Source: Collybia mongolica
Taxonomy: Eukaryota; Basidiomycota; Agaricomycetes; Agaricales; Clitocybaceae
Direction: 5' to 3'
DNA length: 64,000 nt
Assembly: GCA_013420905.1 (NCBI GenBank)
Contig: JAAXNY010000012.1
Coordinates: 1 to 64,000 of the forward strand
Numbering within the stretch: the first letter of the stretch is position 1; each line of letters begins with the position of its first letter. Below the pieces are notes generated by a model. That model worked only from the letters and a program-made list of their open reading frames with translations. It searched no databases and had not been told where the DNA came from. Below, piece after piece: positions 6,694 through 39,843 of the stretch. The position numbers and the translations under genes were made by a program.

Positions 6694-6698
6694 GATCC

Positions 6699-7344: not shown

Positions 7345-7494
7345 TTATCTTATTTTCCATTATTCTGGCATTTATGATCCAATGCAAGAACATTATGGAC
7401 TGTGGGAAGAATAAACAATGTCATGTGACTTTATTTGTATCAATTTGACATGTTGGAATTGGTTCAATCATCTTCTTGACCTCTTACCACCATC

Positions 7495-8514: not shown

Positions 8515-8530
8515 ATAGAAAATTAATAGA

Positions 8531-8741: not shown

Positions 8742-8743
8742 TA

Positions 8744-12358: not shown

Positions 12359-12363
12359 CGGAC

Positions 12364-13875
12364 CTAATTGAAACCCGACTCTTTAACCTTGTTTTGGTTA
12401 TTGAGTTCTGCTACCTGCCCTAATAAAGTACTCATTTGTGCTTGTAAGGCTACTATGTCAGGATTCGGCGCGCTCTTTGCCATAGGATTATAGTTATTAT
12501 TTATATATTCCTGTTTCTGCATCTGAGGCGGTACTGGCAACGCAGTTTGCGTGCTCTGTTGTCCTAACATTTGTTGCGCTTGAAATTGTGCCATTTGTGC
12601 CATTATGGCTTTCAAGGTTCCAATGTCGTTACTATTGTCTACTGCATTATGTGACTGCATAACGGACAATACTCCTGGAGCGGGTCCTTCCGTGACATCT
12701 CCGTAATAAAGGGCTGCTACCTTCTTTGAATGTAAGTGTTCCACTTTATCTTTCAATGATACCGTTTCTGGTTCTCTTGGGATATATGATCCGTCTGGTA
12801 AGCATACTCCTCCATTTGCATTGGTTTTTATTTTCCCTTCCTCAAAATGTTTCTGTTTCTCGGGACAGGCCATTATGAAGTGTCCGGGTGTAAAACAGTA
12901 ATGACATTTATACGCATTTGGTCTTTGCGGTTGTCCTTCTTTAGGCTTTCCGTACTGATTCTGATACTGATGCTGCTGGGGTGCGCTATTCGTGGCATGG
13001 TTCTGAACAGTTGCTTGTTGAAGCGCTTTCATTACATCCTCGAATCCACTCCTCGTATTCTTCTCATTTACTTGGAGACGGTCTAACAAATTAACTATTT
13101 GTTGTTTTATTTCATCCATCTCTACTTTGATTTTGGGCGCTGCTGTTGCTGTTACGGACGTTATAAATGATCTATTCGTGTCTGGAATATTCATGTTGGC
13201 TACACCTTCAGAAATGCTGATTGCAGTTGCTATAACTTCCTCCAGATCGTACTGATCCCCTTTTCGTCGCGCAAGTGCGGCGGCTTCGGCAATAGTATTA
13301 GGATCTGCTCGGTTGTTTGTAGCAACGGCTTGTCCTGCCTGTGTAGCATTAGACTGATTATTCCCTAGCAGGGTTAGCCTTCCTTGTACTTGGGATCTGA
13401 AGACTTCGTCTAGACATCCCAAGAACTTGGTAACTAATTCTCGGTTAGAGATAATAGGTGGCCTAACTCCCAAGAGTTTAATAGATTCTGCTTTGAATTC
13501 ACGCTTCAGCTTTTTCAGCGCGGCCTCATCGGTTACTCCAATACGTGGGTTGGCGCGACACACTGCTTCTAACTTGGCTACTGATCCTTCTACTTGATCG
13601 AGTGCTTCTGGATAACTAGAGATCAACTCTGTCTTGAAATCCGTCCAAGTGCCTGTCTTATAGTGGTCTAATGCCCTCCACTCATTCTCTGATTGTAGGT
13701 CTGCATATTTTCCTAACATTAACTTCTTTTCTTCATCATTTGTAATGTTACACTCCTTCCATAGGACCTCCATTCGCTCCAGAAACCGGATTAAACCTGT
13801 GGGCTCTTTTCCTTTGAATACTGGTGCATCACGGATGCCTGGTTGGGGCATATATTTACGAGGGGGTTCAGTCAT
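12364..13875 (-). CDS. gag: B1 Gag
   Basis: The ATG at 13875 gives MTEPPRKYMP, as in B2. The frame is open further upstream (GTG at 13950). Capsid-like region, coiled segment, then one zinc knuckle CHYCFTPGHFIMAC, followed by the conserved VCLPDGSYIPRE motif that also follows the knuckle in element C (ADGSQIPRG). A Gln-rich C terminus ends in TAG at 12364-12366. The -1 heptamer GGGTTTC (12370-12376, minus strand) precedes the stop by a few bases. Confidence 0.9.
   Translation of the reverse strand: MTEPPRKYMPQPGIRDAPVFKGKEPTGLIRFLERMEVLWKECNITNDEEKKLMLGKYADLQSENEWRALDHYKTGTWTDFKTELISSYPEALDQVEGSVAKLEAVCRANPRIGVTDEAALKKLKREFKAESIKLLGVRPPIISNRELVTKFLGCLDEVFRSQVQGRLTLLGNNQSNATQAGQAVATNNRADPNTIAEAAALARRKGDQYDLEEVIATAISISEGVANMNIPDTNRSFITSVTATAAPKIKVEMDEIKQQIVNLLDRLQVNEKNTRSGFEDVMKALQQATVQNHATNSAPQQHQYQNQYGKPKEGQPQRPNAYKCHYCFTPGHFIMACPEKQKHFEEGKIKTNANGGVCLPDGSYIPREPETVSLKDKVEHLHSKKVAALYYGDVTEGPAPGVLSVMQSHNAVDNSNDIGTLKAIMAQMAQFQAQQMLGQQSTQTALPVPPQMQKQEYINNNYNPMAKSAPNPDIVALQAQMSTLLGQVAELNNQNKVKESGFN
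12370..12376 (-). promoter_or_regulatory. B1 gag/PR -1 heptamer GGGTTTC
   Basis: On the minus strand the gag frame reads G GGT TTC AAT TAG. The -1 frame continues into the protease ORF without a stop. The same site is present in B2 at 29842-29848. Confidence 0.7.
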
Positions 13876-14310
13876 GATTACTGAACGGTTCTGAGTAGCT
13901 AACGAGTTCGGGTTTGCTACTGGGTTTACTATGGACGATCTTCCGCGCACTACTGGTCTACTAGTAGTCGATATGTTTCCTAAGAGCTCTGGAGTTCTAA
14001 ATACTTGCCTTGGTCCTGAAGATCCAAAGGCTGGTTGTGAAGATCCTCGTGTGCGCGCTTGCCTAGGAGGTGGTAACGACTCTGTTACTCCAGCGTTTTG
14101 CGAATTTTTAGTCTGCCGCGTTTTTGTAGCTACTTGTCTTGCAAGTGGCTGATTAGTTAGTCTGTTTGACGAGCTGGCTTGTGGGCGTGGCTCTTGAGAC
14201 AGATTGACTAAACTTTCTCCGCTCTACTTCAATTTGTAGATGACGTTACTCATCTTGGTATAATATTTTTCAAAGAAAGATGCTCTCTTTAGACTATTCA
14301 AAACTCTGAA

Positions 14311-14328
14311 CCCTCGCGGTGGGCTCCA
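14311..14328 (-). other. B1 primer binding site (tRNA type)
   Basis: In sense orientation TGGAGCCCACCGCGAGGG lies two bases inside the 5' LTR. Its complement ends in CCA and has A58 and C61 equivalents at the right distances, as in a tRNA 3' half with U73. The same 18 bases occur in B2 (31784-31801) and in element C (16651-16668). I could not assign the tRNA. Confidence 0.75.
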
Positions 14329-14330
14329 GA

Positions 14331-15546
14331 TGAAAGGGGGCTCCTGGGCTATACGTGCGCTGATGCTATGAAATGTAATCCCTTACACACACACACCAAA
14401 CCTAACAATCAACACACGAACAGTAGGAATTGCCTGTTTTGAGTTCGGGTTCAAGCGCTTAGAAGCACTAAGCTTTGAATAGTACTAGCCAAAGCCCTTT
14501 CCAATGATCTCTCAACAGGTTTGTTTTAGACAAAAGCTTCAACACAGGTTTAAAAACCTGCTAGGTATATTTATAATATCTCTCGATCCAATAGACTGAG
14601 TACCAAGTGTACGTTCAATTATTAATGATCCCAAGCGGATCTATAAGTCCAAGCGACTTATCAAACAATACAGTGCCAAGTGCACTAAGGCCAAGTGCCT
14701 AGTAATTCCAACGGACAATACGGTACTAAGTTCCAAGTGAACTAAGTTTCTTTAATTCTGTAGTTCTTCAATCAATTCCAATCAAGACATGTTGAAGCAA
14801 TCTGATCCTTAATTCGGGCATGCAATAGTGTTTTAACAAATGTGATTTGTATACTCTATAGTCGCGCAAAGTGGGGGCAAGATTCCTTGCCTTAGCGCTA
14901 CTCATCTACAGTCTATTTATAGTGTACAAACTAAATATCATACGGAATTGTAAATTTTACACAGAACCGCGCTCCTGCGTGCCAAGGATCTGTATTCAAT
15001 GCTGATGCGTCCTCTACAACTTGGCGCACGCGCCATGCGTGCCAATTATGCCGTTTACTGGTTACTTATCAAATATTGAAAGAGCTGGCTAAACTCTTAT
15101 CAAGTCGCGACCGCGCGCTCCGTTATTTAAAACAGCGCGGCACTGTCATTTACTCCTCCTGATTGTCCCGGTTGCTATTCACGGGGTCCCGCCGCTTCTG
15201 GTAGTTAACACCAAGTACCCCTGACAAGGATCGGGTTGTGCAAGTCCCGAATTTACAATTACTTCTCCTATTAATGATGATCCCCGGACTAATGATATCA
15301 TACTACAACGGTTACTTATGAACTAAGACACCGAGGTTGTAACCGGGCATGGTGAATAGGACTAATAATAGACCGTACTCATAGTCCTCTGTACTGATAG
15401 TGTATTATCCATTAGACTAGTTCACTCTGATTAGCCGTCTTGGAGCTCGACTCTAATCCTTTATTACCGTTTACTTGGTTATTAGAAATGATACTAATAG
15501 CCTTACTTGTCGACTTTATAAGTGCAAACAATTTCGGGCCCTATCA
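14331..15546 (-). repeat. B1 5' LTR
   Basis: A 1,216-bp LTR. On the plus strand it reads TGAAAGGG...CCCTATCA and the element is read on the minus strand. It is followed by CCGG (15547-15550), the likely target duplication; the other copy is outside the window. Confidence 0.93.
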
Positions 15547-17062: not shown

Positions 17063-18785
17063 ATGTCCGAAACACCATCCCCTGCTCTCGCAATGGGCCC
17101 GACCGTCTACCACATGCCGGCCCGAACACACAACACGGCGCCGAAGTTCGACGGCCAGGCCACCTCACTTCAGAGGTTCTTCACCGACTTCGAACACTTC
17201 GCCGACCTCGTCAAACTTCCCGATCCCGAACGCAAAAGGGACATCGTAAAGTACTTAGACGTCGAGACCGCGCACTTCTGGCAGAGGCGGCCCGAGTTCG
17301 CCGACGTCAATAAGACCTATGCCCAGTTCAAAGACGCAATCACGACCCTGTATCCCGGAGCAATCTTGGAAGAACGTTTTCGGATCAACAACCTCGATCA
17401 GCTCGTCGGAGCAACCCAGAGGAACGGTATTCAGACACTCGCCGAATTCGGAGACTTCTTCCGAAAATACTCCACCATCGTCGAATACCTACAAGGCAAA
17501 GACCGGATCGGGAAGCGGGAAGTATCAATGAACTTCCTCCGAGCTCTCCCGCCCGACGTTGCATCGAAGATAGTATTCCGCATGCAGATCCAGAACCCGA
17601 CGCAGCACATAGACGAGCCCTACAAGCTAGAAGATCTCTTCGAGACCGGCGTCATTATCATGCAAGGGTCGGCCATCATCGACATGCAGAACCCTTATTC
17701 ATTTTCGGCATCCTATGCGGCACCGGCACCGCAGACACAGCCCGCTCCGATCAATCATCATCCCTATATCGGCGCAGGGACCATCGTACCGCCGTTCGGC
17801 GCGCTATCACCGTCGTATCCACAGCAGCCCGGCACGTACCAACAGCCATACCAATACGGGCAACATCAGCCTCCGGCACCGGCCGCCGCCGCGGCACCAG
17901 CCCCGGAAATCTATCAACCTCTTCCCCGAGCCCCGGGAATCAAAGCCGAACCGGGGATCAAAACCGAAGACGTCATGACCATAGCGAACACCATCGCCGC
18001 CGCCTTCGCGAACCAGTTACAGCCGCTACTACAGCAGCAACGCGCGTCGGCGCCAACGCAGAATCGCGGCCTGTACATCTGCAACTTCTGCGGTGTCAAC
18101 GGGCACGGCGTCCGAAACTGCGACATCGCCATGCGGTACATCAACGAGAACCGTATCAAACGGGAAGGCAACCGGCTCGTAATGGCCGACGGTTCACAGA
18201 TCCCGCGCGGCCAAAACGGCGAAAACATGCAGATGTCCATCGATCGGGCACAACCTGCAACCCAAGGGCAGCGCACCGCCGCGATGCTCGAAATATACTC
18301 TCCCGCCGTTGAAAACAGCATCAACGAGCAGACCGCCGAGGTCAATATGCAAGAGTGTCTTGACGACGACGCCCGCGACGAAGCCATCGCCGAAATAGAG
18401 GCCGCCGAACACCAGCTGTTCGAACTCCGCCGAAGAGTCAAGGCCAAGTTTGACGGCGTCGAGTTGACCCAACGCAACAAAGGCAAAGCAAAGGAAACCC
18501 CGTCGGGATCGGGTTCCAACAACACCTCCGCCTCTCGACCCTCGGCATCACATTTGGCAACTCAACCGTCTGCCGCCGTCGCACCATCGGTACCGAAGCC
18601 TGCCGCCGACAAGGCCGCCGCACCTAAAGCCACTTACAACCGTGACGACCCTAAGCCGCGTGAAGAGCCAAACTTCAGGTACGCCGCTCCAGTCGAAGAC
18701 CGCGCCATCGGCACCAAGTTGTACGATCGAATTCTCGACGCACAAGTCACGGTCAGTGCCCGCGAAATCCTAGCCACCTCGCCGG
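17063..18785 (+). CDS. gag: Element C Gag, 5' part (split by B2)
   Basis: ATG at 17063 in a good context. Residues 1-215 are a capsid-like helical region (SLQRFFTDFEHFADL ... RFRINNLDQLVG). A Pro/Gln/Ala-rich linker follows, then a zinc knuckle CNFCGVNGHGVRNC at residues 340-353 with the following ADGSQIPRG motif. After that come acidic and Ala/Ser-rich stretches. The frame ends at the B2 insertion after 574 codons plus one base. It resumes in the same frame at 33025, so Gag and protease were a single ORF of about 784 codons before B2 arrived. The apparent continuation to 18826 is LTR sequence. Confidence 0.9.
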
Positions 18786-20002
18786 TGAAAGGGGGCTCCT
18801 GGGCTATAAGTGCGCTGATGCTATGAAATGTAATCCCTTACACACACACACCAAACTTAACAATCAACACACGAACAGTAGGAATCGCCTGTTTTTGAGT
18901 TCGGGTTCAAGTGCTTAGAAACACTAAGCTTTGAATAGTACTAGCCAAAGCCCTTTTCAATGATCTCCCAACGGGTTTGATTCAGACAAAAGCTTCAACA
19001 CAGGTTTATAAACCTGCTAGGTATATTTATAATATTTCTCGATCCAATAGACTGGGTACCAAGTGTACGTTCAATTATTAATGATCCCAAACGGATCTGT
19101 AAGTCCAAGCGACTTATCAAACAATACAGTGCCAAGTGCACTAAGGCCAAGTGCCTAGTAATTCCAACGGACAATACGGTACTAAGTTCCAAGTGAACTA
19201 AGTTTCTTTAATTCTGTGGTTCTCCAATCAATTCCAATCAAGACACGTTGAAGCAATCTGATCCTTAATTCGGGCACGCAATAGTGTTTTAACAAATGTG
19301 ATTTGTATACTCTATAGTCGCGCGAAGTGGGGGCAAGATTCCTTGCCTTAGCGCTACTCATCTACAGTCTATTTATAATGTACAAACTAAATATCATATG
19401 GAATTGTAAATTTTACACGGAACCGCGCTCCCGCGCGCCAAGAATCTGTATTCAATACTGACGCGTCTACTACAACTTGGCGCGCGCGCCATGCGTGCCA
19501 ATTATGTCGTTTACTGGTTACTTATCAAATATTGAAAGAGCTGGCTAAACTCTTATCAAGTCCCGACCGCGCGCTCTGTTATTTAAAACAGCGCGGCACT
19601 GTCGTTTACTCCTCCTGATTGTCCTGGTTGCTATTCACGGTGTCCCGTCACTTCCGGTAGTTAACACCAAGTACCCCTGACTAGGATCGGGTTGTGCAAG
19701 TCCCGAATTTACAATTACTTCTCCTATTAATGATGATCCCCGGACTAATGATATCATACTACAACGGTTACTTATGAACTAAGACACCGAGGTTGTAACC
19801 GGGCATGGTGAATAGGACTAATAATAGACCGTACTCATAGTCCTCTGTACTGATAGTGTATTATCCATTAGACCAGTTCACTCTGATTAGCCGTCTCGGA
19901 GCTCGACTCTAATCCTTTATTACCGCTTACTTGGTTATTAGAAATGACACTAATAGCCTTACTTGTTGACTTTATAAGTGCAAACAATTTCGGGCCCTAT
20001 CA
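18786..20002 (-). repeat. B2 3' LTR
   Basis: 1,217 bp, reading TGAAAGGG...CCCTATCA on the plus strand. It appears identical to 31804-33020. Relative to B1 it lacks a few CpG-to-TpG type changes. Confidence 0.95.
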
Positions 20003-20010
20003 TCTCCCCC
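20003..20010 (-). other. B2 polypurine tract
   Basis: On the minus strand GGGGGAGA directly precedes the U3 start TGATAGGG. Element C has GAGGGAGA in the same place. It marks the true end of the internal region, beyond the antisense genes. Confidence 0.75.
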
Positions 20011-20340
20011 ATACCACAAATGTAGACTGTCCTCAGTCTCCCTTTGCCGGCAGGTTGGTCCAATACTTCGGGTCTGCACGCGTCTAATCTTTCAGTACAA
20101 TGTTACAACGGTTCCGCTTTTAGACAGGTAGGCGCGCGATGTTGGGATCGAGCCCAGAGGTTTACTTCCCATCAGGATCGTGACAGCTATATACGTCTCC
20201 TGAGAGAGTACTTGACATTCGGACATCGCTTTACAGATATTTCAGTCATCTGGACATTTTTCTCGTTATGTTTCTGACACTTCAGCAAGAGATCGGTACT
20301 CCTGTTTGTTCTTTAGAGCTTCGCAATGCAGGGTTGTGCG

Positions 20341-20350
20341 TTTTAAAAAG
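20341..20350 (+). promoter_or_regulatory. TATA-like box of B2 antisense gene 1
   Basis: TTTTAAAAAG about 105 bp before the ATG at 20454. The 20011-20453 stretch holds no other supported gene; its short ORFs do not match anything recognisable and are probably leader and promoter. Confidence 0.4.
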
Positions 20351-20453
20351 CTCGCGTCCTTGCTAAGTTTTAGACAATTTGGACTTTATAGCCCATTTCT
20401 AAATCTCTTTGCTATCTGCATCGCTCAAACGCCCCGACTCTTTTCAAACAGAA

Positions 20454-22399
20454 ATGTCTTCCACTTCCACTTCCGCCATGGCTCGTGCTCTGCGCTCGCC
20501 TTCCGCGCTGTCTCTCCCGCTCTCTGCCGCGATTCTGCCGACTGAGGGCCGTTCCCCCACCATGGTCTATGTGGACCAGCCGATCCCTTCCTTCCCTGAC
20601 CTCCTCGAAGATGCCGAGGGCGACGTCTTCGTCGCTATGGAGCAAGGGTGGATTATCATGGCCGAGGAGCTCGCGCCCCGTATGGACCATCAGGGTCCGC
20701 TTGACCTTGACGACTTGATCGATTTTGTCGATCACTGCTCCATGCTCATCGTACGCCCATCTTTTACTTGTTAATTCCTTTTACTTATTTACTGGTCTCA
20801 GGATGCCATCACTGGCGTGGTCCGTGGCGCGCGTTTCTCGCTGCCATATCCGGCTATCCTCCTCCTGCGCGCGCTTCACCTTCAAGTGATGCGCATCCCA
20901 GTTGACGCGCGCGATGCTTCGTGGTCGTCCTGGCGTACGGTCATATCGACTGACCTGGGCGCCAACTCCATTCTTCTGGTAAATAACTTGTTTACTTCTT
21001 TACTCTGCCTCCCTTTGTCAAGCTGACTACCTTTTTCTTTTAGGGCCAGGCTCCCACAGTGGAGCAAGTCCTTGACCAGGTGGGGTCGCGCTTCGAGCGC
21101 GACAATGGTGATAGTATCTTTCGGGATACTTTCCTCGTCCCGCCTCGCATGGTTGGCGCGCCGCGCCGTTACCATCAGTACCAGGACAATTGGTCCGCCG
21201 CGCCCTTGCCGGCGCGCTCCCCGGTCTTGGTACCCGCGGTTCGTTTATTACTGCCTTTTTATTACTTTTCTTCGGTAGTTGACTTATTTTAATAGCCCCT
21301 CAAGCGGAAGCGTAATGCTGGGTCCAAGGGAAAAGGCCGTGCGGTTCCCCAGGTATATCCTTTACTTTACGAGTTTCACATTATTGCTGACTTGATTTCA
21401 CAATTCTAGTCCGACATGTCGCGCGCCCAGGGGACTGGCAGTGCTTCCGCGCTGCGTCCCTCGGAAGCAGGCCCGGTATGTCTCTTTCTGAAGTCATTTA
21501 CGTTCACTCATCTTTATCTCCTTAGTCCTCTGGGCAGCCGCCGGTGAAGGTTGAAGTCCCTGAGCTTCAGCTCTTCGATGATGAGGTCGCACGCCAGTTG
21601 GCTCAAGAGGGGTTCGCGGAGTTGTTGCCTCCCGCGGCCCCTTCTCCTCGTCAGTCGCGTAAGACCACCCGCTCTAGGGATAGGGCTCAGGCGACACACC
21701 GTAAGCACGCGCTGGTTCCCAACCGGGAGCTGACGCCGCTCCAGTCCCCTATTACCTCCCTGCTGGCTGACCTTGCGCCGCGGCGCTCTTCCGTATGTTT
21801 ATTACTACTTTATTTCTTGTTACTGATCATTTTTACTAGGTGGGCTATCCTTGCACGATGTGCGCCACCCGCGGCGACATTGAGTGCACCTTCAACGGTT
21901 GGGGTAAACCGTGCGTGGAATGCGCCACCGCCAAGAAGGGGAAGTGCAGCTTCAGCCTCACTCCCCAGAGGCGCGCTAGGCTCCGTGAGGATCTGGGGCC
22001 CATGCTTGGTGCGGGCATTTCTAGTAAGCCATCTTCTTTCCATCTTTTTGTTTACTACTGATTTTACTTATTCTACTAGCGGTTGCTGAAGCCTATGCTC
22101 AGCTCGGCAACGCGGACACCCTTGCCGCGGAGGTCATTCAGGCCGCTAACCGCGCGCTTGAAATGCGCGACTCCTTGTTGGCGCGCATAGTTGGCACCAT
22201 TGGTAGGTTGTACGAGGAGGAAGGCCTGGAGGGCCTTCAAAACCTCTTGCTGACTACGCCAGCCACGGAGAGCGCCCTCCTCTTCTACGCGGACTTCCAG
22301 AATCTCCCTTGGCCGCCCTTGGAAGAAGAAGTAGAGGTTGATGACAGTTCTTCATCGTCAAGATCTTCTGCGTCCGTGCCTGACAGCGAGGAGGAGTAG
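20454..22399 (+). CDS. B2 antisense gene 1: Zn2Cys6-like cluster protein
   Basis: Predicted 520-aa protein. Exons: 20454-20750, 20802-20978, 21044-21238, 21296-21352, 21410-21475, 21526-21792, 21840-22023, 22080-22399. All introns have GT...AG ends and are 44-65 nt long. The first six are phase 0. Exon 4 encodes a basic stretch (PLKRKRNAGSKGKGR) that could be a nuclear signal. Exon 7 carries six cysteines spaced CX2CX7CX8CX2CX7C, close to the fungal Zn(II)2Cys6 DNA-binding pattern, followed by basic residues. A helical segment and an acidic Ser/Glu tail (PDSEEE) end it. It lies opposite to gag-pol between pol and the 3' LTR. A nuclear, DNA-binding or regulatory role is inferred. The family is unknown to me. 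Confidence 0.8.
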
Positions 22400-22999
22400 C
22401 CGCGCCGCGCCCCCCCCCACCTACGTTTTTTTTTTTTTTTCTATATGTGTTTTCCCGGGCCCCTGGCCCTTTTATTACTGCTACCTAAGTTCCCCCGCCT
22501 TTCGTTGGGCTTCAATTCTTTAATTGAAGTCCAACACATGTCTTATATACAGTCCCTCGGACTATAAACAATGCTATTGATTTGGCTGTGGTTCTATTGT
22601 CTTCATAAGAAAGCTTCCGCCCTTGCCCCGGCTACTTAAGTTATAAATAGTACGGTTTAATTCTGGTGCAATTCTCTCGATCATTAAAAACCGTGGCGCG
22701 ATCACTGACTTTTTATAGACAATCTATTTCAATCCTTGTAACCTTGGTAGGTTTTTCCAATTCGATTTTGCTTATACCCATCTCCCCCTCAACACTGATA
22801 ACAACTGTCCCAGTTGTCATGCGGACACTGCCGCGCTCCACATGAATTTTTACGGAGCTCCTTTTTTTTTTTTAATTGGGCCCAGCATTTCAATTAGGCA
22901 CGCGTCTCGGACCTGTTCAGTTGAAATGTATAGATTTTTCTGGGGATAGAACGCGCGCAACGAATGAGAGACTGGGTAGCACTTCTCTAGTCGTAGAGG
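22400..22999. other. Spacer between B2 antisense genes
   Basis: About 600 bp with a T-run near 22427-22440, AT-rich stretches and the small inverted motif GTCC-CTC-GGAC near 22551. It presumably holds the 3' end of gene 1 and the promoter of gene 2. No further gene is supported. Confidence 0.5.
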
Positions 23000-23007
23000 T
23001 ATAAAAA
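23000..23007 (+). promoter_or_regulatory. TATA box of B2 antisense gene 2
   Basis: TATAAAAA followed by GGGC, 106 bp upstream of the ATG at 23106. It is the clearest TATA box in the antisense region and supports an independent promoter. Confidence 0.6.
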
Positions 23008-23105
23008 GGGCACTGGCTGTGCTTTTTGTCCCAAGACATCGCCCGACTCTATTATACTCTCTTTACAACGTTCTGGTTCGAAGAATCAATTTCCTCTGCA
23101 TCATT

Positions 23106-24483
23106 ATGACTAGCCCCCCCAACTATCAAGACATCGAGAACTTCAAGATGGTCCAAGCTCAGTGGCACACCTTTCAAGCTCGTTTATCGATGGACACCCT
23201 TGTTGAACAAAGGGTCAGCGTCCGGAAGTTAGGCGAAACCGCGGTACACTTTTTACCAATTAACTTATATACGCCGTTATCGTAACAACTTTTACAATTT
23301 ACAGCTACTCCTGACTGAGTCCAAAATGGTTTTGACGGAGCGGTCCTGGCAGAATGTTATCTTTGGCGTCCGTAAAGCATTCCAGGGACTACAACATGTA
23401 TACCCCGAGTTACTTCAAGAGCCCGTCTACCGCAACATTGTGACTCTTACTGCCGCTATTCACCGTCACCGTGAAAAGGTCCGCACCGAGCACCTGTCTC
23501 AAACCGCGGTGCGTGCTTTTTACCTTATCTTGCACTGTACTGTTCTTAAACCATGGTTTTCTGGTACTAGGTCCCTGCTACTGGTGGTGATGCGGATAGT
23601 CCCGCTATTCCAGGCGAGGTCATTGCTGGCGGTGAATATGACGGTGACATTGAAATGTCTGGTACTGACTCGGTATGTTTCTTTTTAGCTACCACGCTGT
23701 CAGTGCGCGACATACTCAATGGCGTCTCTTCTTTACTCAAGAATATGGTCATTGATTCCGGCGCTACGGCTAGCGCTACTGTCTCTGGACCAGTGACTAG
23801 TCGTCTCCTTAGTGAAGAACCAATCACCCGTAGTCGCAAGGAGAAGGAGAACATTAAGGTTCCCCGTGTCAAAAGGACTAAGGCTGAAAAGGCTGCCATC
23901 AAGGTACCCATTCTTGTTTTTGCTCTGTCTATTACTTTGTTTCTCATTCCTACAGGACGGTAAGCGTTCCGAGCTCAACCGCGGCAGTACTCTTCGTCCC
24001 AAAAAGCGTACGAGGCAGGACACCCCGGATGAAGATCCAAAGGCATCTGCTGAGGGTACGTTTTCTAATAATAGATGGTTCTAATTTTATACTGACTGTG
24101 TATCAGATACTCGTGTCTTTATTGACTTCCGTCCCTCCAAGGAGCACGATGTAGTCTTAGCGCGGGCGCGCTTGATTGCTGACGCGGGCGATCCCTTGTC
24201 ACACACCAAGCAAGCCCTCGGTAGGATGCTTTTAAACTACCGCGCTGAGTTGGAGGAGATCAGTCATACAGTGTCCTTCTTATTGAAGCGTCGTGACGCC
24301 ACTATGGACGAGGTTACTCGCCTCAACGGTCTAATGAACGAGGCCGCTCTGGAGGGAGGCTCTGACGAGGCTGCCACTGCGAGCGCTACCGAAGTCCATG
24401 ACCAGGATGACAATGATAAAGAGGAGGTAGCTCCGGCTGACGTGCCCTTGCCCGAGGTTGAAGACGACTTCATATCTGCTTGA
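23106..24483 (+). CDS. B2 antisense gene 2: helical hypothetical protein
   Basis: Predicted 360-aa protein. Exons: 23106-23243, 23305-23508, 23571-23672, 23742-23903, 23956-24055, 24107-24483. Introns are 51-69 nt with GT...AG borders and mostly phase 0. Intron 3 (69 nt) is itself open in frame and might be retained. The N terminus is helical (NYQDIENFKMVQAQWHTFQARL). The middle is Lys/Arg-rich with PKKRTRQ as a possible nuclear signal. The C-terminal part has a coiled-coil-like pair of helices (YRAELEEISHTVSFLLKRR) and an acidic tail. There is no cysteine cluster. It is convergent with pol, whose stop lies 147 bp away. I do not recognise the family. Confidence 0.72.
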
Positions 24484-24629
24484 GGGTAGTCCAATTAACT
24501 TCCTCCTTAGTTATGGTGTCCCTCCCCACGCTCCTTTGTATTACTGTCTTTACTCGGTTTAACACTGTCCTTACTACTTAGCTTCGTTGCTTACACTGTC
24601 TTTACTGCTTCTGTTTTCATACTGATTTA

Positions 24630-27600
24630 TCACTTATGCAACTTCCGGTGTGACATAGTAGTTTGTGGTAGCGCCGGCGCTATCCCCTCTTCAGTGTTTT
24701 CACTAGAGCTTGACTCTGAATCGGACTGATCCAATTGGACTCTGTCAAAGGTATAGTCACGCTCCTTATAAACTTGTCTATTAGCGGGATCTTTCGATTC
24801 CACTAAAGCATTTAATGTTTCGCTAGAGATGTCTATTAGATCTTGCAGATTATCCGGCAGTTCAATTGTACTCCTAGCAAAATAGGGAATAACCCTAAAC
24901 GCCCCCACTTTATGTTGCCACACCGATCCATCCATTTCACAAACAATATAGGCTCCCCCGCGGTTTCGTCTCAGGACTATCATTGGTCCCAGGTACCGTG
25001 GCTTCAGCTTTTTATCGAGCGAACTTTCGACCTCGGTATTTCTAACTAGTACTAAACTTCCTGGTTTGAAATCATAGTCTCTGATGGTCGCGCTGTGATC
25101 CTTCTCATACTGTAATAGTCTCCTTCGTTTTTCTATATTGATACGTTTCCTCATATCGGCCACATGCTGGACGTGCTTAGCTAGAGCCTGCGCTCTAAAC
25201 CCAATGAGTTCCTCTGTAGTCAATATTTTTCCTGGTAACTTTACTAACCAAGTGGCTTCAATGATATCTAACGGTAAGGTTGGGTGCGCGCCCGTAATCA
25301 TAAAATAGGGGGAGCAACCCGTCCCTCTCCGTATAGTAATCCTGTCAGCCCACATTACATGGTGGAAGAAGTAGTACCACTTCTTTACATCACCACCTGT
25401 AGCTTTGAAGACAGCTTGACGCACATCCCAATGTGCGCGCTCGGCGATCCCATTTCCTTTGGAATTGTATGGTGATATACTTATTCCTGTAATACCATAC
25501 TTGGATTCCAGCCACGCTTTGGCTGCGACAAAGGCAGGACCATTATCCGTTACAATTTCCGTTAGAGAACCCCATCTACAAATTACTTCTTCGAACAGCC
25601 ACCTTCCCAAGGTCTTGCCGTCCTCAGATTTGAGGGGCGCGCCTTCCATCCATGAAGACAGCGCACATCTTCCTTGGACAATGTATTTATAACCGTTAGA
25701 CGATGGGCTCATATACATGGTGTCCGCATGCAATACTTGGAATATAGACGGTGTGTGGGTTATAACAGGAGGGATTCTCAACAAAGTTAAAAGCCTTGTC
25801 TGACAGATGTGACATGACTTCACATACCATGATACATCGCGTTCCATTTCTGGCCACCAAAATCTTTTATCTATTAAAGATTTTGTTGCATAGAAACCCC
25901 TATGTCCAACAGAATCGTGAGACGCCTTCATCATATATGTTCGGTGATTTTTATCAACAACAAGCTGGTGCGCGCTATCGATATTTTTCCTATACATCCT
26001 GCCTTCTGGATCCAAAAAGAAATTAGACGCCTGCCTTGCAAACTTTAGGTAGGCGCGATCTGTCATTCCTTTTGGTCTCTTTTGTGGTCTTTTTAACCAT
26101 TCTTTTATTAAAGGTAGGTTTTTATCCTGTTCCTGTGCCGTAGGTGTCCGTTTAGACTCATCATATACTTCCCTTACATTAGGGTCGTATTTAAACTTTT
26201 CATTGGGTATGACAGTAGTATTTACAAGTTGCTTTAGATAAGCTTCTCTTTGAATACCGAACCGTCCTAAACCTAAGTGCTGTTTTACTTCTCCGATAAA
26301 TGCTGCTTCACCAGCCCAGGCATTGTTTACTTCCACTTCAAAATCAGAGATTTCCTTTGCAAGTTGGAATAGATATCCGCCGCGCGTGTCGATCTCCTCT
26401 TTAAAGTCTGACAGTTCCAAAGGGTCATCCAATCCTTCCGTTGGGTTGATAAACCTTAAAGGACCTGAGGGTTCGTCGTAACCATCGTCTGGGTCCGGGT
26501 AGACAGGATCCCCTAGCCGCGCGTCGCGTCTTGACAGACCGTCTGGGCCAAAGCCTTTACCAGCTTTATGAACCAAAGTAAAGTGGAACATAAGTATCCT
26601 ATCAATCCACCTATTTACCGTTGCATTAGGTCCTAAACTTGGGTTTGATAACATCCCCTTAATGTACTTTGCATCCGTTTCCACTACCAAATTTCGTACT
26701 CCAATAAACCAATAATAACATGCCATTAGAACTCTCATTAATCCGAATAGCTCTCGTTTGGGTTGTGAGAAGCGCGCTTCGCGCTCATTCAGAGTTATCG
26801 AGTCAAATCTAGCATAGTGCTTTCTTCCAGGTATATCAGGGTCTTCCTGGTAGATATAGTAGCCTACGGCTTTCCATGACGTATCTACTGACAGTACTAC
26901 TGGCGTATTCCAGGTGTAATTAATTGGACGGAGCGCGGGGCTATTTTTAAGTGCGTCTAATAATAGCTGCTGCGCTTCTTCTTGCTCAGGCCCCCATATC
27001 CAAGGTTCACTACTCCTAGTTAACTTTTGAATTGGTTGACCTATACGGGCGAAGTCTTTAATGAAATTCCTGCATACACCAATAGTTCCCATGTAAGCGC
27101 GTACTTCACTGACATCTTTGCATGGTCCCCATCTTTCAACTACACCGATTCTATCTGTAGTAGGTTTTCGTCCTTCATAGGTACATCTATGTCCTACCAC
27201 TAGAATTTCACTTGCGCATAACATAGACTTATATCCTGAAAATGTTCCTCCAGAATACTTCATTCTCTGTACGACGCGATTTACATTTTGCATATGTTCC
27301 CAGAAGAAGCGCCTAACACCTGGAGCACCAGGTAGCTCTTCTTCTGTTCCGTCCGGTAGTTCGTAGCGCGTTGCTGGACCGCGCACGGGTACATCATCAA
27401 TATAGGGTATTGTGACATGTGGTACCTCATCCTGTAGGATGTACGTGACATCGTCATGAAATATTGGAACAGAATTCGTCCATCCCATAGGGAGTGTTAC
27501 TAATCTCAGCGCGCCAAATGGTGTTTGGAACGTGGTTAGATCGCGCGAGGTTTCTGCTAAAGGCCTCTCATCGTATCCTACATATAGATCCATCATTCCG

Positions 27601-28496
27601 CCACAAGCGCGCCCTGCGAAGTGTTCTGCTAGTTCTTCGGTAGCGGGTGGTAGACCCGAGTGCGCTATTGTGACTGCATTCAGTGGTTCTAGACTATGTA
27701 CAATTCTAAGCTTCTTTCCTGGGCCTTTCTTTAATACGGTAAACCATCTAGACCTGTATGATGAATTGGATCTCTCATAGACTCCTGCATCAATTTTTGT
27801 CTTGATGATTTTACAAACATCTTCATAGATTCCTGGTGGGATTCTAATGTTCCTCTCTGTCCACGGCGTATGTGGGACTACTGGTATTTCGACGGGAGGA
27901 AAATATTCCTTCTTAAAACTACCGCGCTCACTATCATTCCAAGCAAAACCATCATTATGTTTGCACATAAAGTCGTGGATTATATCCATCTCTTTAGGTT
28001 TTAAGAAGCTTTCTTCTTCGTGTACTCTTTGGAATTCCGCGCGCCTTTCCTCAGTGTACCTCCCAGTTGGTTTAAACGGAGGTGGGTTAGGCGTTAGAAC
28101 TGGTAGGGCTGCTAAAGGGTCGCCCTTTATATCTCTGATAATTCTAAATTTATCAGGCAGGTCCGCCAGTGTTGGTTTTGTTTTCAAATGTACTGGTTTA
28201 TACTTCTTTCCTACTAGCTGATCCATGGTCTCAATATTACACTTTTCACTTGTTGCCGTTCCAAAACCGCGCTCGTTTGTGCCAATTTGCCACTGCTTTA
28301 ATTTACTTAAAGCTTTATTGATCATGGGCTGTTCTTGAGCGTATGTCAGTGGTCTAGTGGGTGTGCTTGCTGGGTCCCTACTGTTCTGCTCGTAGTTTAT
28401 TACTGGTCCATCGCGCTCATCTACGGAAGCCAAGTACGTGGCTAGTAATTCGCGTTCAGGTACTGTACTATTCATGTTTACATCACTTCTAGACAA
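24630..28496 (-). CDS. pol: B2 Pol (RT-RH-IN)
   Basis: 1288 codons from the first ATG. The frame is also open upstream to the GGATTTT heptamer at 28643-28649, so it is most likely made as a frameshift fusion. Reverse transcriptase has YIDD at residues 365-368. RNase H has [27 protein letters not shown] and [10 protein letters not shown]. Integrase has an HHCC finger ([15 protein letters not shown] ... CHICQ) and a DDE core ([26 protein letters not shown]). After the integrase come a basic GPMIV/RNRGGAY region and an acidic Ser-rich tail. There is no chromodomain. No interruption was found, so this copy may be active. B1 is a deleted version of it. Confidence 0.95.
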
Positions 28497-28624
28497 AAAG
28501 ACATCTCTAAGTTCTTTGTGACCAAAATTCCGCTTATCAGTAGGGTGTCTATAACCCGTTATAATAAAGTTCCCGTCCTCATCTTCAGCAATTTCTACGG
28601 CTAGCTCTCCTTGATCACTTTGGA

Positions 28625-29830
28625 TTAATTCATCGAAGGCCGAAAATCCTGCTCCGGTTGTCTTTTCAACAGCTTAGGCGGTGATCCCTTTGCATGGGTA
28701 GGAATAGTACACCTTCGTCCCGTGTTAGGGTCCGTGATAGTGACTACTTGTCCCCCGTCCCGAGCATTTTTGATCTGACTTTCCGTGAGCGTATCAAACG
28801 GTCTCCCGAGCAATACTTTGTATGCGGGTGAATTTATAATATGTACTTGGAGGTAGATGGCCATGTCATTAAACAAGAAAGGGACATTGCGCGCTAATCC
28901 CGCTGTTTTCTCCACTTGTTTATTAGCACTCTGCATGTGTATGACAACGTCCGGATCCCATGAAATATCCAAGTCTAAAGCCGTTTGTTTAGCCATTGAT
29001 ACTATTTGGGATCCCCCATCTAATAAAGATTCCTCCGTTCCTACCCCATTTATTACTGGATATACTGCGCGCAAAGAGGCCGATTCTTTTGCTACATACA
29101 ACTGTTTGGGCTCTTCCCCGGCTGGTAAAGATTCTAAATACTGTAGGACTGGGTCCCCGCATATTATAGATCCCTTAGGTATTCCGCCGCGGTCATACTC
29201 TGAGATGAAGAAAGACTGGAATGGGATTGACTCTACTGGTAGCGCGTCATGCCGTAAGTAGTTATCATCAAGTTCCCAGTCCCCTCCAAAGGGTAAGACG
29301 TCTTCCTCATCTATTCCGTTTATTTGCAAGTTAGCGTCCCTTTGGGTAAGGGACTTACGTCTGGCAGTTACAATATTCTTTATTCCATCTCTAATGGTTT
29401 TTGACGAGCCCATTAACTCTCCCGTGGTCAATGTGATAGGGTTGTCTAACACTTTAGCAATTATATCGCCACCTTTTAATTTTACTTCTATCGGGGACTT
29501 AGTTTCATAAGTCGGACCGCGCTTAGTGTTAAAATTAGGTAGCGGATCAACTGGTTCAGGGTTGCGTTCCGTTCTCCGGGGTATGTAGGGTACCACGGGC
29601 ACATCGATGTAGGGTAATTCTTTTCGTACTGGGGACTTTACTGATGGTTCAACAAATTTTACTTTCTTTTTACTAGGAGACGGCGCTACCAACTCCTCTT
29701 CACTACTATCCTGACTACTCTCTGAATTGTTACTTTCTTGACGACTATTTCTATTTTTACTTCGGTCCTCTGGCTGTCTCTTGGAACGCGACCTAGTCGT
29801 AGGTCTAGCGTGTTCCTTAGCCTCCTTCAT
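28625..29830 (-). CDS. B2 protease-region ORF
   Basis: 401-aa ORF in -1 relative to gag, starting at an ATG eight bases past the gag stop. The frame is also open upstream to the GGGTTTC heptamer. The N terminus is basic then Ser/Glu-rich. A retropepsin-like domain has LLDGGSQIV with the presumed catalytic Asp at residue 271, and ends with the [13 protein letters not shown] motif, which matches the C-terminal ILLGRPF-type strand of retroviral-like proteases. The Gly in place of Ser/Thr after Asp is unusual. Its 3' part contains the GGATTTT heptamer that leads into pol. Confidence 0.85.
28643..28649 (-). promoter_or_regulatory. B2 PR/pol -1 heptamer GGATTTT
   Basis: Protease frame: CAG GAT TTT CGG ... 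TAA. The -1 frame is open from here through to MSRSDVNMN and on into RT. Same site in B1. Confidence 0.7.
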
Positions 29831-29835
29831 CGGAC

Positions 29836-31347
29836 CTAATTGAAACCCGACTCTTTAACCTTGTTTTGGTTATTGAGTTCTGCTACCTGCCCTAATAAAG
29901 TACTCATTTGTGCTTGTAAGGCTACTATGTCAGGGTTCGGCGCGCTCTTTGCCGTAGGATTATAGTTATTATTTATATATTCCTGTTTCTGCATCTGAGG
30001 CGCTACTGGCAGCGCGGTTTGCGCGCTCTGTTGTCCTAACATTTGTTGCACTTGAAATTGTGCCATTTGTGCCATTATGGCTTTCAAGGTTCCAATGTCG
30101 TTACTATTGTCTACTGCATTATGTGACTGCATAACGGACAATACTCCTGGAGCGGGTCCTTCTGTGACATCTCCGTAATAAAGGGCCGCTACCTTCTTTG
30201 AATGGAAGTGTTCCACTTTATCTTTCAATGATACCGTTTCTGGTTCTCTTGGAATATATGATCCGTCTGGTAAGCATACTCCTCCATTTGCGTTGGTTTT
30301 TATTTTCCCTTCCTCAAAATGTTTCTGTTTCTCGGGACAGGCCATTATGAAGTGTCCGGGTGTAAAACAGTAGTGACATTTATACGCATTTGGTCTTTGC
30401 GGTTGTCCTTCTTTAGGCTTTCCGTACTGATTCTGATACTGATGCTGCTGGGGTGCGCTATTCGTGGCATGGTTCTGAACAGTTGCTTGTTGAAGCGCTT
30501 TCATTACATCCTCAAATCCACTCCTCGTATTCTTCTCATTTACTTGGAGACGGTCTAACAAATTAACTATTTGTTGTTTTATTTCATCCATCTCTACTTT
30601 GATTTTGGGCGCTGCTGTTGCTGTTACGGACGTTATAAACGATCTATTTGTGTCTGGAATATTCATGTTGGCTACACCTTCAGAAATGCTGATTGCAGTT
30701 GCTATAACTTCCTCCAGATCGTACTGATCCCCTTTTCGTCGCGCGAGCGCGGCGGCTTCGGCAATAGTATTAGGATCTGCTCGGTTGTTTGTAGCAACGG
30801 CTTGTCCTGCCTGTGTAGCATTAGACTGATTATTCCCTAGCAGGGTTAGCCTTCCTTGTACTTGGGATCTGAAGACTTCGTCTAGACACCCCAAGAACTT
30901 GGTAACTAATTCTCGGTTAGAGATAATAGGTGGCCTAACTCCCAAGAGTTTAATAGATTCTGCTTTGAATTCACGCTTCAGCTTTTTCAGCGCGGCCTCA
31001 TCGGTTACTCCAATACGTGGGTTGGCGCGACACACTGCCTCTAACTTGGCTACTGATCCTTCTACTTGATCGAGTGCTTCCGGATAACTAGAGATCAACT
31101 CTGTCTTGAAATCCGTCCAAGTGCCTGTCTTATAGTGGTCTAATGCCCTCCACTCATTCTCTGATTGTAGGTCTGCGTATTTTCCCAACATTAACTTCTT
31201 TTCTTCATCATTTGTAATGTTACACTCCTTCCATAGGACCTCCATTCGCTCCAGAAACCGGATTAAACCCGTGGGCTCTTTTCCTTTGAATACTGGTGCA
31301 TCACGGACGCCTGGTTGGGGCATATATTTACGAGGGGGTTCAGTCAT
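29836..31347 (-). CDS. gag: B2 Gag
   Basis: 503 aa from the first ATG. The capsid-like region starts with APVFKGKEPTGLIRFLERMEVLWKEC and includes KLMLGKYADL. A coiled segment (IKQQIVNLLDRLQVNEKN) follows, then a zinc knuckle CX2CX4HX4C at residues 324-337. The VCLPDGSYIPRE motif and a Gln/Met-rich tail complete it. The reading frame upstream of this ATG (31348-31783) is also largely open in B1 and B2, so a longer N terminus cannot be excluded. Confidence 0.93.
   Translation of the reverse strand: MTEPPRKYMPQPGVRDAPVFKGKEPTGLIRFLERMEVLWKECNITNDEEKKLMLGKYADLQSENEWRALDHYKTGTWTDFKTELISSYPEALDQVEGSVAKLEAVCRANPRIGVTDEAALKKLKREFKAESIKLLGVRPPIISNRELVTKFLGCLDEVFRSQVQGRLTLLGNNQSNATQAGQAVATNNRADPNTIAEAAALARRKGDQYDLEEVIATAISISEGVANMNIPDTNRSFITSVTATAAPKIKVEMDEIKQQIVNLLDRLQVNEKNTRSGFEDVMKALQQATVQNHATNSAPQQHQYQNQYGKPKEGQPQRPNAYKCHYCFTPGHFIMACPEKQKHFEEGKIKTNANGGVCLPDGSYIPREPETVSLKDKVEHFHSKKVAALYYGDVTEGPAPGVLSVMQSHNAVDNSNDIGTLKAIMAQMAQFQVQQMLGQQSAQTALPVAPQMQKQEYINNNYNPTAKSAPNPDIVALQAQMSTLLGQVAELNNQNKVKESGFN
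29842..29848 (-). promoter_or_regulatory. B2 gag/PR -1 heptamer GGGTTTC
   Basis: Gag frame: TCG GGT TTC AAT TAG, a perfect X XXY YYZ site just ahead of the gag stop. The -1 frame runs on into the protease ORF without a stop. Confidence 0.75.
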
Positions 31348-31783
31348 GATTACTGAACGGTTCTGAGTAGCTAACGAGTTCGGGTTTGCTACTGGGTTTA
31401 CTACGGACGATCTTCCGCGCGCTACTGGTCTACTAGTAGTCGATATGTTTCCTAAGGGCTCTGGAGTTCTAAATACTTGCCTTGGTCCTGAAGATCCAAA
31501 GGCTGGTTGTGAAGATCCTCGTGTGCGCGCTTGCCTAGGAGGTGGTAACGACTCTGTTACTCCAGCGTTTTGCGAATTTTTAGTCTGCCGCGTTTTTGTA
31601 GCTACTTGTCTTGCAAGTGGCTGATTAGTTAGTCTGTTTGACGAGCTGGCTTGTGGGCGTGGCTCTTGAGACAGATTGACTAAACTTTCTCCGCTCTACT
31701 TCAATTTGTAGACGACGTTACTCGTCTTGGTATAATATTTTTCAAAGAAAGATGCTCTCTTTAGACTATTCAAAAACTCTGAA

Positions 31784-31801
31784 CCCTCGCGGTGGGCTCC
31801 A
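31784..31801 (-). other. B2 primer binding site (tRNA type)
   Basis: TGGAGCCCACCGCGAGGG in sense orientation, two bases from the 5' LTR. It matches the PBS of B1 and C. Confidence 0.8.
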
Positions 31802-31803
31802 GA

Positions 31804-33020
31804 TGAAAGGGGGCTCCTGGGCTATAAGTGCGCTGATGCTATGAAATGTAATCCCTTACACACACACACCAAACTTAACAATCAACACACGAACAGTAGG
31901 AATCGCCTGTTTTTGAGTTCGGGTTCAAGTGCTTAGAAACACTAAGCTTTGAATAGTACTAGCCAAAGCCCTTTTCAATGATCTCCCAACGGGTTTGATT
32001 CAGACAAAAGCTTCAACACAGGTTTATAAACCTGCTAGGTATATTTATAATATTTCTCGATCCAATAGACTGGGTACCAAGTGTACGTTCAATTATTAAT
32101 GATCCCAAACGGATCTGTAAGTCCAAGCGACTTATCAAACAATACAGTGCCAAGTGCACTAAGGCCAAGTGCCTAGTAATTCCAACGGACAATACGGTAC
32201 TAAGTTCCAAGTGAACTAAGTTTCTTTAATTCTGTGGTTCTCCAATCAATTCCAATCAAGACACGTTGAAGCAATCTGATCCTTAATTCGGGCACGCAAT
32301 AGTGTTTTAACAAATGTGATTTGTATACTCTATAGTCGCGCGAAGTGGGGGCAAGATTCCTTGCCTTAGCGCTACTCATCTACAGTCTATTTATAATGTA
32401 CAAACTAAATATCATATGGAATTGTAAATTTTACACGGAACCGCGCTCCCGCGCGCCAAGAATCTGTATTCAATACTGACGCGTCTACTACAACTTGGCG
32501 CGCGCGCCATGCGTGCCAATTATGTCGTTTACTGGTTACTTATCAAATATTGAAAGAGCTGGCTAAACTCTTATCAAGTCCCGACCGCGCGCTCTGTTAT
32601 TTAAAACAGCGCGGCACTGTCGTTTACTCCTCCTGATTGTCCTGGTTGCTATTCACGGTGTCCCGTCACTTCCGGTAGTTAACACCAAGTACCCCTGACT
32701 AGGATCGGGTTGTGCAAGTCCCGAATTTACAATTACTTCTCCTATTAATGATGATCCCCGGACTAATGATATCATACTACAACGGTTACTTATGAACTAA
32801 GACACCGAGGTTGTAACCGGGCATGGTGAATAGGACTAATAATAGACCGTACTCATAGTCCTCTGTACTGATAGTGTATTATCCATTAGACCAGTTCACT
32901 CTGATTAGCCGTCTCGGAGCTCGACTCTAATCCTTTATTACCGCTTACTTGGTTATTAGAAATGACACTAATAGCCTTACTTGTTGACTTTATAAGTGCA
33001 AACAATTTCGGGCCCTATCA
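31804..33020 (-). repeat. B2 5' LTR
   Basis: 1,217 bp, apparently identical to 18786-20002. It is followed by CCGG (33021-33024), the second copy of the target duplication, after which the gag-protease frame of element C resumes. Confidence 0.95.
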
Positions 33021-33024
33021 CCGG

Positions 33025-37699: not shown

Positions 37700-39843
37700 C
37701 TATCGACTCCCAGACGCGACCCTATTCCTCTCCTCGATCTTCCTCTCCAAAGCGGCTTTCGCATCATGCAAGGCCGCCAGCATCGTATACTCAACGTCCA
37801 TGTCGCATTCGATCTCTTCAATCCGACCCAGGATCCGGGAAAGCTGGCGTTCCGCGCTTCCGATCCTATTGTCCAAATCCAATGTCGAGACCAAATGGCT
37901 TGCGACCGGGTGCCCGTGCAGTCCTAACCCCTGGCTTTGAGCTGACCGAACAGGCGTCCACAAGGGTTCGGCAACAGACGTCCTCCGACGGGCCGTCCTC
38001 CGTGTAGTCTTAGCTCTTTCGATCTTAACCGCGACCTTGTCTGTTGATCCGACGCCGTCCTCATCATCCTCCAACTCGTCGCTCTCCTTGTCATCCGCCG
38101 ATGCCTCCGGGTCCACGACTTCTATCGCCGGTGTCACAGCTTCCAGTTTCCCTTCCACCGGCGCCGCAGTCTTTCTGGCCAGCTTCGCCTTTGACCGAAT
38201 AACCTCCAACCCGTCGTCATCCACCGTCACCGACCGGCTCGTACCTTGGGACTTCAAAGTTGCCTTCGGTGCCGTCTTCCCCTTCCCTTTTACCTTGCCT
38301 TTCACCTCAGGATTGTCTTGTTCCGCTACGAACGCCGAGCACCTCTGTTTGCGTTTCTTGCACATGTAACAGACACCTCCCGGTGGGCCGCCACACATCA
38401 AAACCTTCGACGCGCGGCAACTAGCGCATCTGTCCGGGTACATCTACAATAAGCAAAGTCAATATCTTCCTTTAATAGGGACGCTTTATCACACACCTTG
38501 TCACTCGGGACCCGAGTGTTCAAAACGTACAAAACAAAAGAATCAAGGTGCGCTTTCGGCGCTGACTCCTGATCCTCGTAGAAGTATTCGACGGCTTTCG
38601 CCTCCTCGATGCGCCGTTGGTCATTACTAATCGTCCTCGCCACCCGGGGGATCTTCCTCGCCTTTCCACCTTTCACCGCCGAAGAGCCCGCAGCCTCGTC
38701 CTCATCTATCTCCATTTCCCCTTCCGCATCATCGTCATCCGGTATGTCGATCGCCTCCGGTTCCACGGTGGGAGCACTCCTTCCACTCAGAAATGCCTCG
38801 GAGCGCGGAGGCACCGACACCTCTAGCTGCAATCGCGACTCCGTCCGCGCTTGCTTGGTTTTCTTGAGGGAACCCGGTGGAGACGTAGCCGTTCGCTTCC
38901 TTTCGATCCGTTGCGCCTTGGAAGGAGTTGTCGGTTCCTCGTCCTCGCTGGTATCGATCGTGGGTTTGCTGACGATGCCACGGCGCGCAGCCGGGCGACG
39001 GGCCATTGTAGACTGCGAACCGGTATCCTTCCCTTCCAGTCCAGTAACCACAACTTCTTTTCTAACCACCGCCGTCGAAGCCCCACCAATGCTCCTTCCA
39101 ATCCTGCTAGTCGACATCATCGCAATTGGACGCGGTTGGGGACGCTCAGACGCCGGCGTTTTGACCATGTCCCGTCCCGACGATTCGGACCCTCCAAATG
39201 TACCACTTCTTTCTCGAGCTTCACCCTCCACCGCCTTCTGTTTCCCCGCTCTGACGGCGGCCCGAACTTCGCGTTCGTCCTCGGCATCTTCGTCTCGTAC
39301 CGCCGCCGGCGTCGTCTTCGGGCGTGCTACCGCCGAACTGGTCATCTCCCGTTCTTCCGTGACCTCCATCGCATCTTCCCTACCCTCCGCCGGACGTGAA
39401 CTTTTCTTCGGACTTCCATCCCTCATTTCTATCTCCTCTGGTGCCAAGGCATCCTCAGTAGTCACCGGCCCATCGTCAACCGGATTTGAATCCAACCACA
39501 CGGCGTATGGGACACCCAGAATGCGCCAGGTTTCGGTGATATGCGTCCGGATCCATGAGTGGAACTTCCCAATTTGCACCTTCAGGTCGACGTCCGTTAG
39601 CACTTTCGCGCGCGTAAGATGGTCGATCTTCTCCTACAAAGCTCCCTCGGTCACTAGGAACCAAATAATAGAAATAAAATCTCCACTCACCTTGGCCTTC
39701 ACCAGCCGTTTTGCCTTCAAAAACGCCAAGATCCCGTTCTCCGTCTCTTCCACAACTGCGTCATCGAGACCGAATCCACTCGCGTCGAGCATCCCTTGCA
39801 CATAGGCGAGGTCACCATTGAAGTCCGGAGCGGGGGTCGACAT
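37700..39843 (-). CDS. Element C antisense gene: Zn2Cys6-like cluster protein
   Basis: Predicted 677-aa protein. Exons on the minus strand: 39843-39691, 39633-38497, 38443-37700. The introns are 57 and 53 nt, start GTGAGT and GTGTGT, and are both phase 0. Exon 1 plus early exon 2 form a helical N terminus. A long Ser/Thr/Glu-rich disordered region with basic KTKQAR/ERKRT stretches follows. Exon 3 opens with MYP and then CX2CX7CX7CX2CX6C (CASC ... CYMC ... C), a Zn(II)2Cys6-like cluster followed by Lys-rich sequence. The end is coiled-coil (ERQLSRILGRIEEIE). It occupies the same antisense position as in B2 and has the same intron placement before the cluster. The frame is intact although pol is broken. 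Function unknown; nuclear DNA-binding is inferred. Confidence 0.82.

Follow-up and report, generated by a model that had tools for sequence, protein, structure and literature searches.

Intron-containing antisense genes as a selected component of Ty3/gypsy retrotransposons in the mushroom Collybia mongolica

What are two intron-containing genes doing on the strand opposite gag and pol inside a mushroom retrotransposon? The locus that raises this question lies within the first 64,000 nucleotides of contig JAAXNY010000012.1 of Collybia mongolica (assembly GCA_013420905.1), a stretch that we refer to as the window and whose numbering we use throughout. In it, a Ty3/gypsy element, B2, carries a 4.6-kb block that separates its pol from its 3' long terminal repeat (LTR), and the block contains two genes, g1 and g2, that read against gag-pol. 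We lean, if only somewhat, towards the view that these are genuine, selected accessory genes of Ty3/gypsy elements, found in three families (B, C and E) and traceable in a further locus, F, and that they most likely encode nuclear regulators of the element. The two genes and the one clear promoter-like signal are as follows.

20454..22399, plus strand: g1, 520 amino acids, antisense to gag-pol, eight exons (20454-20750, 20802-20978, 21044-21238, 21296-21352, 21410-21475, 21526-21792, 21840-22023, 22080-22399)
23106..24483, plus strand: g2, 360 amino acids, antisense to gag-pol, six exons (23106-23243, 23305-23508, 23571-23672, 23742-23903, 23956-24055, 24107-24483)
23000..23005, plus strand: TATA-like box (TATAAA) 5' of g2, compared between copies within an 18-base context

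A preliminary description of the window had proposed two multi-exon genes of these lengths on the opposite strand, each with its own TATA-like box. The exon models bear out the genes: their 12 introns, taken together, are 47-69 nt long and all GT-AG, and in either gene every intron is in phase 0 (six in g1, four in g2) except the last, which is in phase 1. The boxes fared unevenly. That of g2 is found with its context unchanged in 28 of 30 copies of the block and in three of four more divergent copies, but g1 has only weaker candidates upstream (TATATA at 20188 and TTTAAA at 20342). In every copy without exon gaps, the annotated frame of the joined exons has zero internal stops and each of the other five frames has at least one. 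Variable columns are concentrated at third codon positions (positions 1/2/3: 33/29/97 for g1 over 28 sequences, p 1e-12; 19/14/34 for g2 over 30 sequences, p 0.008). The distribution of stops over the six frames, together with this third-position excess, rules out that g1 and g2 are chance frames.

Is the block peculiar to B2? Across the genome searched (46.0 Mb in 26 contigs, all copy counts being lower bounds), it is present at no fewer than 34 places, which amount to about 33 copies, one being split in two, and the g1 protein gives at least 184 exon-level matches. We fetched 30 copies, L001 being that of the window itself. The 3' part of pol flanks the block on one side in all 30, and LTR sequence lies on the other side in 28, with at least 1,215 of 1,217 bases in 26 of those; the exceptions to a full-length LTR are L012 and L030, which have none, and L022 and L029, which have part of one. 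g2 is open in 30 of 30 copies and g1 in 28, being frameshifted in L005 and truncated by a contig end in L030; every splice site examined across the 30 copies is GT-AG. Approached from pol, an antisense gene lies on the 3' side at 35 of the 40 scored B pol places listed, the pairing being made with a selection of the g1 matches.

Pairwise Nei-Gojobori estimates of the ratio of nonsynonymous to synonymous change (dN/dS), averaged, give 0.18 between the two B subfamilies for g1 (dS 0.11, 195 pairs, without L005 and L030) and the same value for g2 (dS 0.02, 210 pairs, without L030); within subfamilies the ratio is 0.16-0.43. With L005 and L030 excluded, the columns containing insertions or deletions, 15 in g1 and 7 in g2, are all intronic. 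The divergent copies extend the comparison: in L032 and L033, two of the four, g1 is open at a dS of 0.24-0.25, with dN/dS of 0.24 and 0.22; L034 matches g1 except over the first 51 bases (dN/dS 0.29 over the remainder) and has an open g2; in L033, g2 is open to the end of the available stretch; and L031 has decayed, showing a stop, insertions or deletions in exons, the loss of two splice signals and an extensive deletion inside g2. Over the 24 of 30 loci aligned along about 6.1 kb, the 67 fixed differences between the subfamilies all fall at 20583-21741 in g1, where the fixed codon changes are 31.5 silent against 17.5 nonsilent (none in g2), and exchange between copies is the likelier source of this 1.16-kb mosaic. 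The preliminary description had tied its proposal of an accessory-gene-bearing retroelement to the presence of the block in other B copies, to conserved frames and to purifying selection; the counts of places and open frames and the ratio of 0.18 for either gene support the proposal strongly, and family B carries the block as a constant feature under purifying selection.

These data bear on two other explanations. One is that g1 and g2 came from the host and are neutral cargo of the element, or that they are what is left of a different transposon that inserted into the block. Intron-rich genes do look host-like, and ordinary Zn_clus genes occur in the host (20 matches, next to 39 to STE3 pheromone receptors, several of them clustered, and 50 to DUF6533, all three being absent from 14 control genomes and pointing to an Agaricomycete), but the position is the same in the 35 B copies just given, related genes lie at the corresponding site of C and E, dN/dS is well under 1 and the block borders have no inverted repeats. 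We regard the idea as highly improbable: neutral passage is rejected by the between-subfamily ratio, and a nested DNA transposon by the constant block position and the lack of bounding inverted repeats. The other explanation is that the RNA matters rather than the protein, antisense transcripts pairing with genomic RNA and entering RNA interference, by which the element would limit itself. A plus-strand transcript from anywhere in the block is necessarily complementary to genomic RNA, and PMC7264820 discusses the idea for plant antisense open reading frames (ORFs). Selection is seen on codons, however, in the third-position excess, in the low dN/dS and in the confinement of insertions and deletions to introns, which makes this explanation improbable as well, if less so.

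What kind of element houses the block? Its parts are listed below.

18786-33020, minus strand: B2, the whole Ty3/gypsy element
18786..20002, minus strand: 3' LTR of B2, 1,217 bp, TG...CA, same sequence as 31804-33020, with CCGG flank at 18782-18785
31804..33020, minus strand: 5' LTR of B2, with CCGG outer flank at 33021-33024
20003..20010, minus strand: purine tract adjoining the 3' LTR, GGGGGAGA as read on the minus strand
24630..28673, minus strand: pol of B2 (reverse transcriptase (RT), RNase H, integrase), a 1,347-amino-acid open frame
28625..29854, minus strand: open frame between gag and pol, probably the protease region, judging from its DGGSQ stretch
29836..31695, minus strand: gag, with a CCHC knuckle scoring slightly under the Pfam cut-off

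The ends had been correctly described beforehand: the two LTRs start with TG, end with CA and show no difference over 1,217 bp, a 4-bp CCGG target duplication lies on their outer sides and the purine tract abuts the 3' LTR. With these features, and with RT-RNase H ahead of integrase, B2 is a Ty3/gypsy LTR retrotransposon. Ty3 Gag-Pol is the top PDB relative of its pol (E 7e-28); against Pfam, RNase H and the integrase zinc-binding domain score above their cut-offs, and RVT_1 and rve (RT and integrase core) below theirs. Pfam Chromo has no match in B pol or in the C pol fragment, which stops short of the C-terminus, and B2 is not placed among the chromoviruses, which are assigned by a chromodomain at the C-terminus of integrase. 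B2 sits inside a second element, C, with which it has in common a primer-binding-like site, TGGAGCCCACCGCGAGGG. On the gag-pol strand, the block has no stop-free run longer than 135 amino acids. By hand count, each frame overlap of B2 on the minus strand is a -1 shift (gag/middle at 29836-29854, 18 nt; middle/pol at 28625-28673, 48 nt), and a slippery-type heptamer, G GGT TTC in the gag frame, lies inside the first of them.

A second B copy in the window, B1 (1-15546), has the same heptamer. Its 3' LTR, split by chromovirus A into 1-603 and 6694-6961, adjoins pol directly, and its position 6962 corresponds to 26053 of B2, which places the loss of the antisense block in B1 as a deletion. B1 is one of five B pol copies at which no block was detected, and one of the other four lies at a contig start. 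We rejected a single shared deletion behind these copies, the B1 junction of LTR and pol being found at one place in the genome (at most 2 mismatches). B1 pol also contains a Tc1/mariner-like element (7132-8743) with a 344-amino-acid DDE transposase frame and terminal repeats that begin TACAGTGGCTCAAA.

Antisense genes are not confined to family B. Element C has one between its pol and its 3' LTR, in three exons.

37700..39843, minus strand: antisense accessory gene of element C, 677 amino acids, with a six-cysteine motif (exons 39843-39691, 39633-38497, 38443-37700)

Three of the four other C copies fetched have this gene open. Family E, whose pol is 76-78% identical to that of C, also carries an antisense gene on the 3' side of pol, which is open in copy L035. 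By hand pairing, six of seven C pol copies and seven of seven E pol copies have an antisense gene on their 3' side. Homology between the C and E proteins shows near the N-terminus (E 2.6e-8) and across the cysteines (5.7e-7), and a related stretch lies opposite a pol end in the decayed locus F, where five of the six cysteines are kept (C versus F, 3e-8 downstream and 5e-5 across the cysteines). Among the other elements of the window, chromovirus A has a Pfam chromodomain, no accessory gene and 11 bp from pol to LTR, and element D has about 530 bp over the same interval. By sequence comparison, then, g1 and g2 are coding genes that can be spliced, that hold a fixed position and evolve under purifying selection, and antisense genes are present in three families.

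What might the proteins do? The g1, C and E proteins have in common a motif of six cysteines, C-x2-C-x7-C-x7/8-C-x2-C-x6/7-C, located in g1 by a regular-expression scan.

21852..21947, plus strand: six-cysteine motif of g1, in exon 7

Within the six frames of the window the motif occurs in g1 and the C gene only, and it appears in 0 of 100 codon-shuffled windows. A phase-0 intron lies 4 (g1), 5 (C) and 5 (E) residues ahead of the first cysteine, and motif and intron position make it likely, though not proven, that g1 shares an ancestor with the genes of C and E. The motif is zinc-cluster-like and resembles the Zn(II)2Cys6 family, in which we claim no membership for it. Basic clusters of the form K-K/R-x-K/R are present in the g1, g2, C and E proteins. 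On the conjecture of the preliminary description that the element perhaps regulates its own silencing or that of the host, these clusters and the motif would fit, but do not show, a nuclear protein that binds nucleic acid. Short helices follow each CxxC in the C structure model only (mean predicted local distance difference test score, pLDDT, 52.6). Scans of g1 and g2 against Pfam (E up to 1) gave no family, TRP28 (PF04195) included, g2 matched none in NCBIfam, and PDB sequence searches with both cysteine fragments returned nothing relevant. No homologue of g1 or of C residues 405-677 was found among 5.8 billion proteins, a weak null, since introns would interrupt the gene calls made on fungal contigs. 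For B pol, 1,216 of 7,999 scored candidates are relatives, and in viral and genome contig collections no related locus was found.

The basic clusters and the zinc-like motif would fit equally well if the proteins served the life cycle of the element and not its transcription, in nuclear import of the complementary DNA, in integration targeting or as a nucleocapsid-like helper. It also speaks for such a role that the gene-carrying elements show no Pfam chromodomain and that chromovirus A has one without any accessory gene. Antisense transcription from separate promoters would, however, be an odd route for supplying a particle component, and the Pfam scan finds no integrase- or gag-like similarity; we consider a life-cycle role unlikely, though clearly less so than the passenger and RNA explanations.

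Several observations weigh against reading the genes as nuclear regulators shared by these families. The gene models, and with them transcription and splicing, are predictions from sequence. That no block was detected at five B pol copies shows that a copy can persist without it; the gene is broken in one of the four other C copies and in two of the three E copies (L036 and L037); and few changes lie behind the dN/dS values of C (0.34-0.46) and E (0.20-0.41). g1 matches the C protein at no better than E 0.09, neither the E nor the F protein matches it in the motif region, and g2 has no counterpart when compared with the C and E proteins. The textbook Zn2Cys6 spacing is C-x2-C-x6-C-x5..12-C-x2-C-x6..8-C, unlike the first loop of x7 found here; Pfam Zn_clus gives 13.5 bits over 14 residues of the C fragment, against a cut-off of 21, and nothing for g1. 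The structure models are poor (mean pLDDT 52.6 for C and 45.5 for g1).

On the nuclear-regulator reading, g1 and g2 would be transcribed against gag-pol from internal promoters, and their introns would survive retrotransposition because the genes lie opposite the gag-pol-sense genomic RNA, which cannot splice them out. We infer that the genes are expressed and spliced, and that their products are nuclear, bind zinc and DNA, and regulate. The g1, C and E proteins would use a C6 zinc cluster to bind nucleic acid, and a g1-type protein may act in trans on the LTR or an internal promoter of its own element, either to set the level of transcription or to resist silencing. HBZ of human T-cell leukaemia virus type 1 (HTLV-1) offers a parallel, with its own mode of action, and a similar role has been suggested for the Retand proteins of plants. 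The g2 protein could be a second nuclear factor, perhaps a partner of g1. More tentatively, we hypothesize that intron-containing antisense genes mark a lineage of mushroom Ty3/gypsy elements and encode a specialised zinc-cluster regulator, joined in B by a second factor, and that the strand opposite genomic RNA may serve as an intron-safe compartment for host-style spliced regulatory genes. The introns show which strand is the replication template, the many selected copies open the function of antisense genes to reporter testing, and the motif with its adjacent intron offers a handle for finding such genes in other fungi, where they are perhaps annotated as hypothetical proteins.

Elsewhere in the window, a B-type LTR (47242-48194 and 54829-55078; 88% and 96% identical) is interrupted by the Ty3/gypsy element D, whose own LTRs lie at 48196-48573 and 54459-54836. 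At 42090-44670, overlapping plus-strand frames (276, 253 and 196 amino acids) look by eye like a tyrosine-recombinase element with an RT-like part; the frame at 42266-43096 has no Pfam match. An open frame of 331 amino acids with paired cysteines (44911-45906) looks by eye like a ubiquitin- or SUMO-protease, with no match in Pfam or NCBIfam.

How does this arrangement compare with known systems? HBZ is a basic leucine zipper (bZIP) protein and begins in the 3' LTR. As an antisense-strand regulatory gene of an LTR element with a nuclear protein (HTLV-1; PMC11963269), it resembles g1 and g2, for which a nuclear location is suspected only; unlike it, they seemingly have internal promoters, and g1 has a cysteine-rich motif. 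We claim no homology. Among plants, Retand/Tat-type elements carry antisense genes (gene23 of maize Grande, rice RIRE2, Silene Retand), with a nuclear protein and its own promoter in Grande and DNA binding predicted for TRP28 (PMC7264820, PMC11963269), and antisense coding regions occur in all Retand clusters studied (PMC11963269). B2 differs in its fungal host and, having no TRP28 or other Pfam match in g1 or g2, lacks the TRP28-bearing antisense ORF that would place it in that lineage; g1 and g2 have many introns, and the word 'intron' is absent from PMC7264820 and PMC11963269.

The preliminary description knew of no antisense accessory gene in fungi, which is contradicted by brtn of the element Boty in Botrytis cinerea and Sclerotinia sclerotiorum, published in 2011 (Zhao et al., Virology 417:248, as cited in PMC7264820) and named as an additional ORF of BcGypsy1 in PMC8365987. 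Like B2, Boty is a fungal Ty3/gypsy element with an extra antisense gene in the interval from pol to the 3' LTR; compared by description only, it differs in its ascomycete host and its one named extra gene, there being two in B and one in the related families. The word 'antisense' is absent from the available part of a survey of fungal LTR elements (PMC3248453), and our partial literature search, which covered titles and the beginnings of abstracts, showed no basidiomycete example. Antisense accessory genes were thus known from plants and at least one ascomycete element; here they come in three families, in many copies, with introns and with measurable selection. Within that partial search, the occurrence of such genes in three families of one basidiomycete lineage looks new, as do the large number of their introns, the presence of a second gene and the zinc-cluster-like motif.

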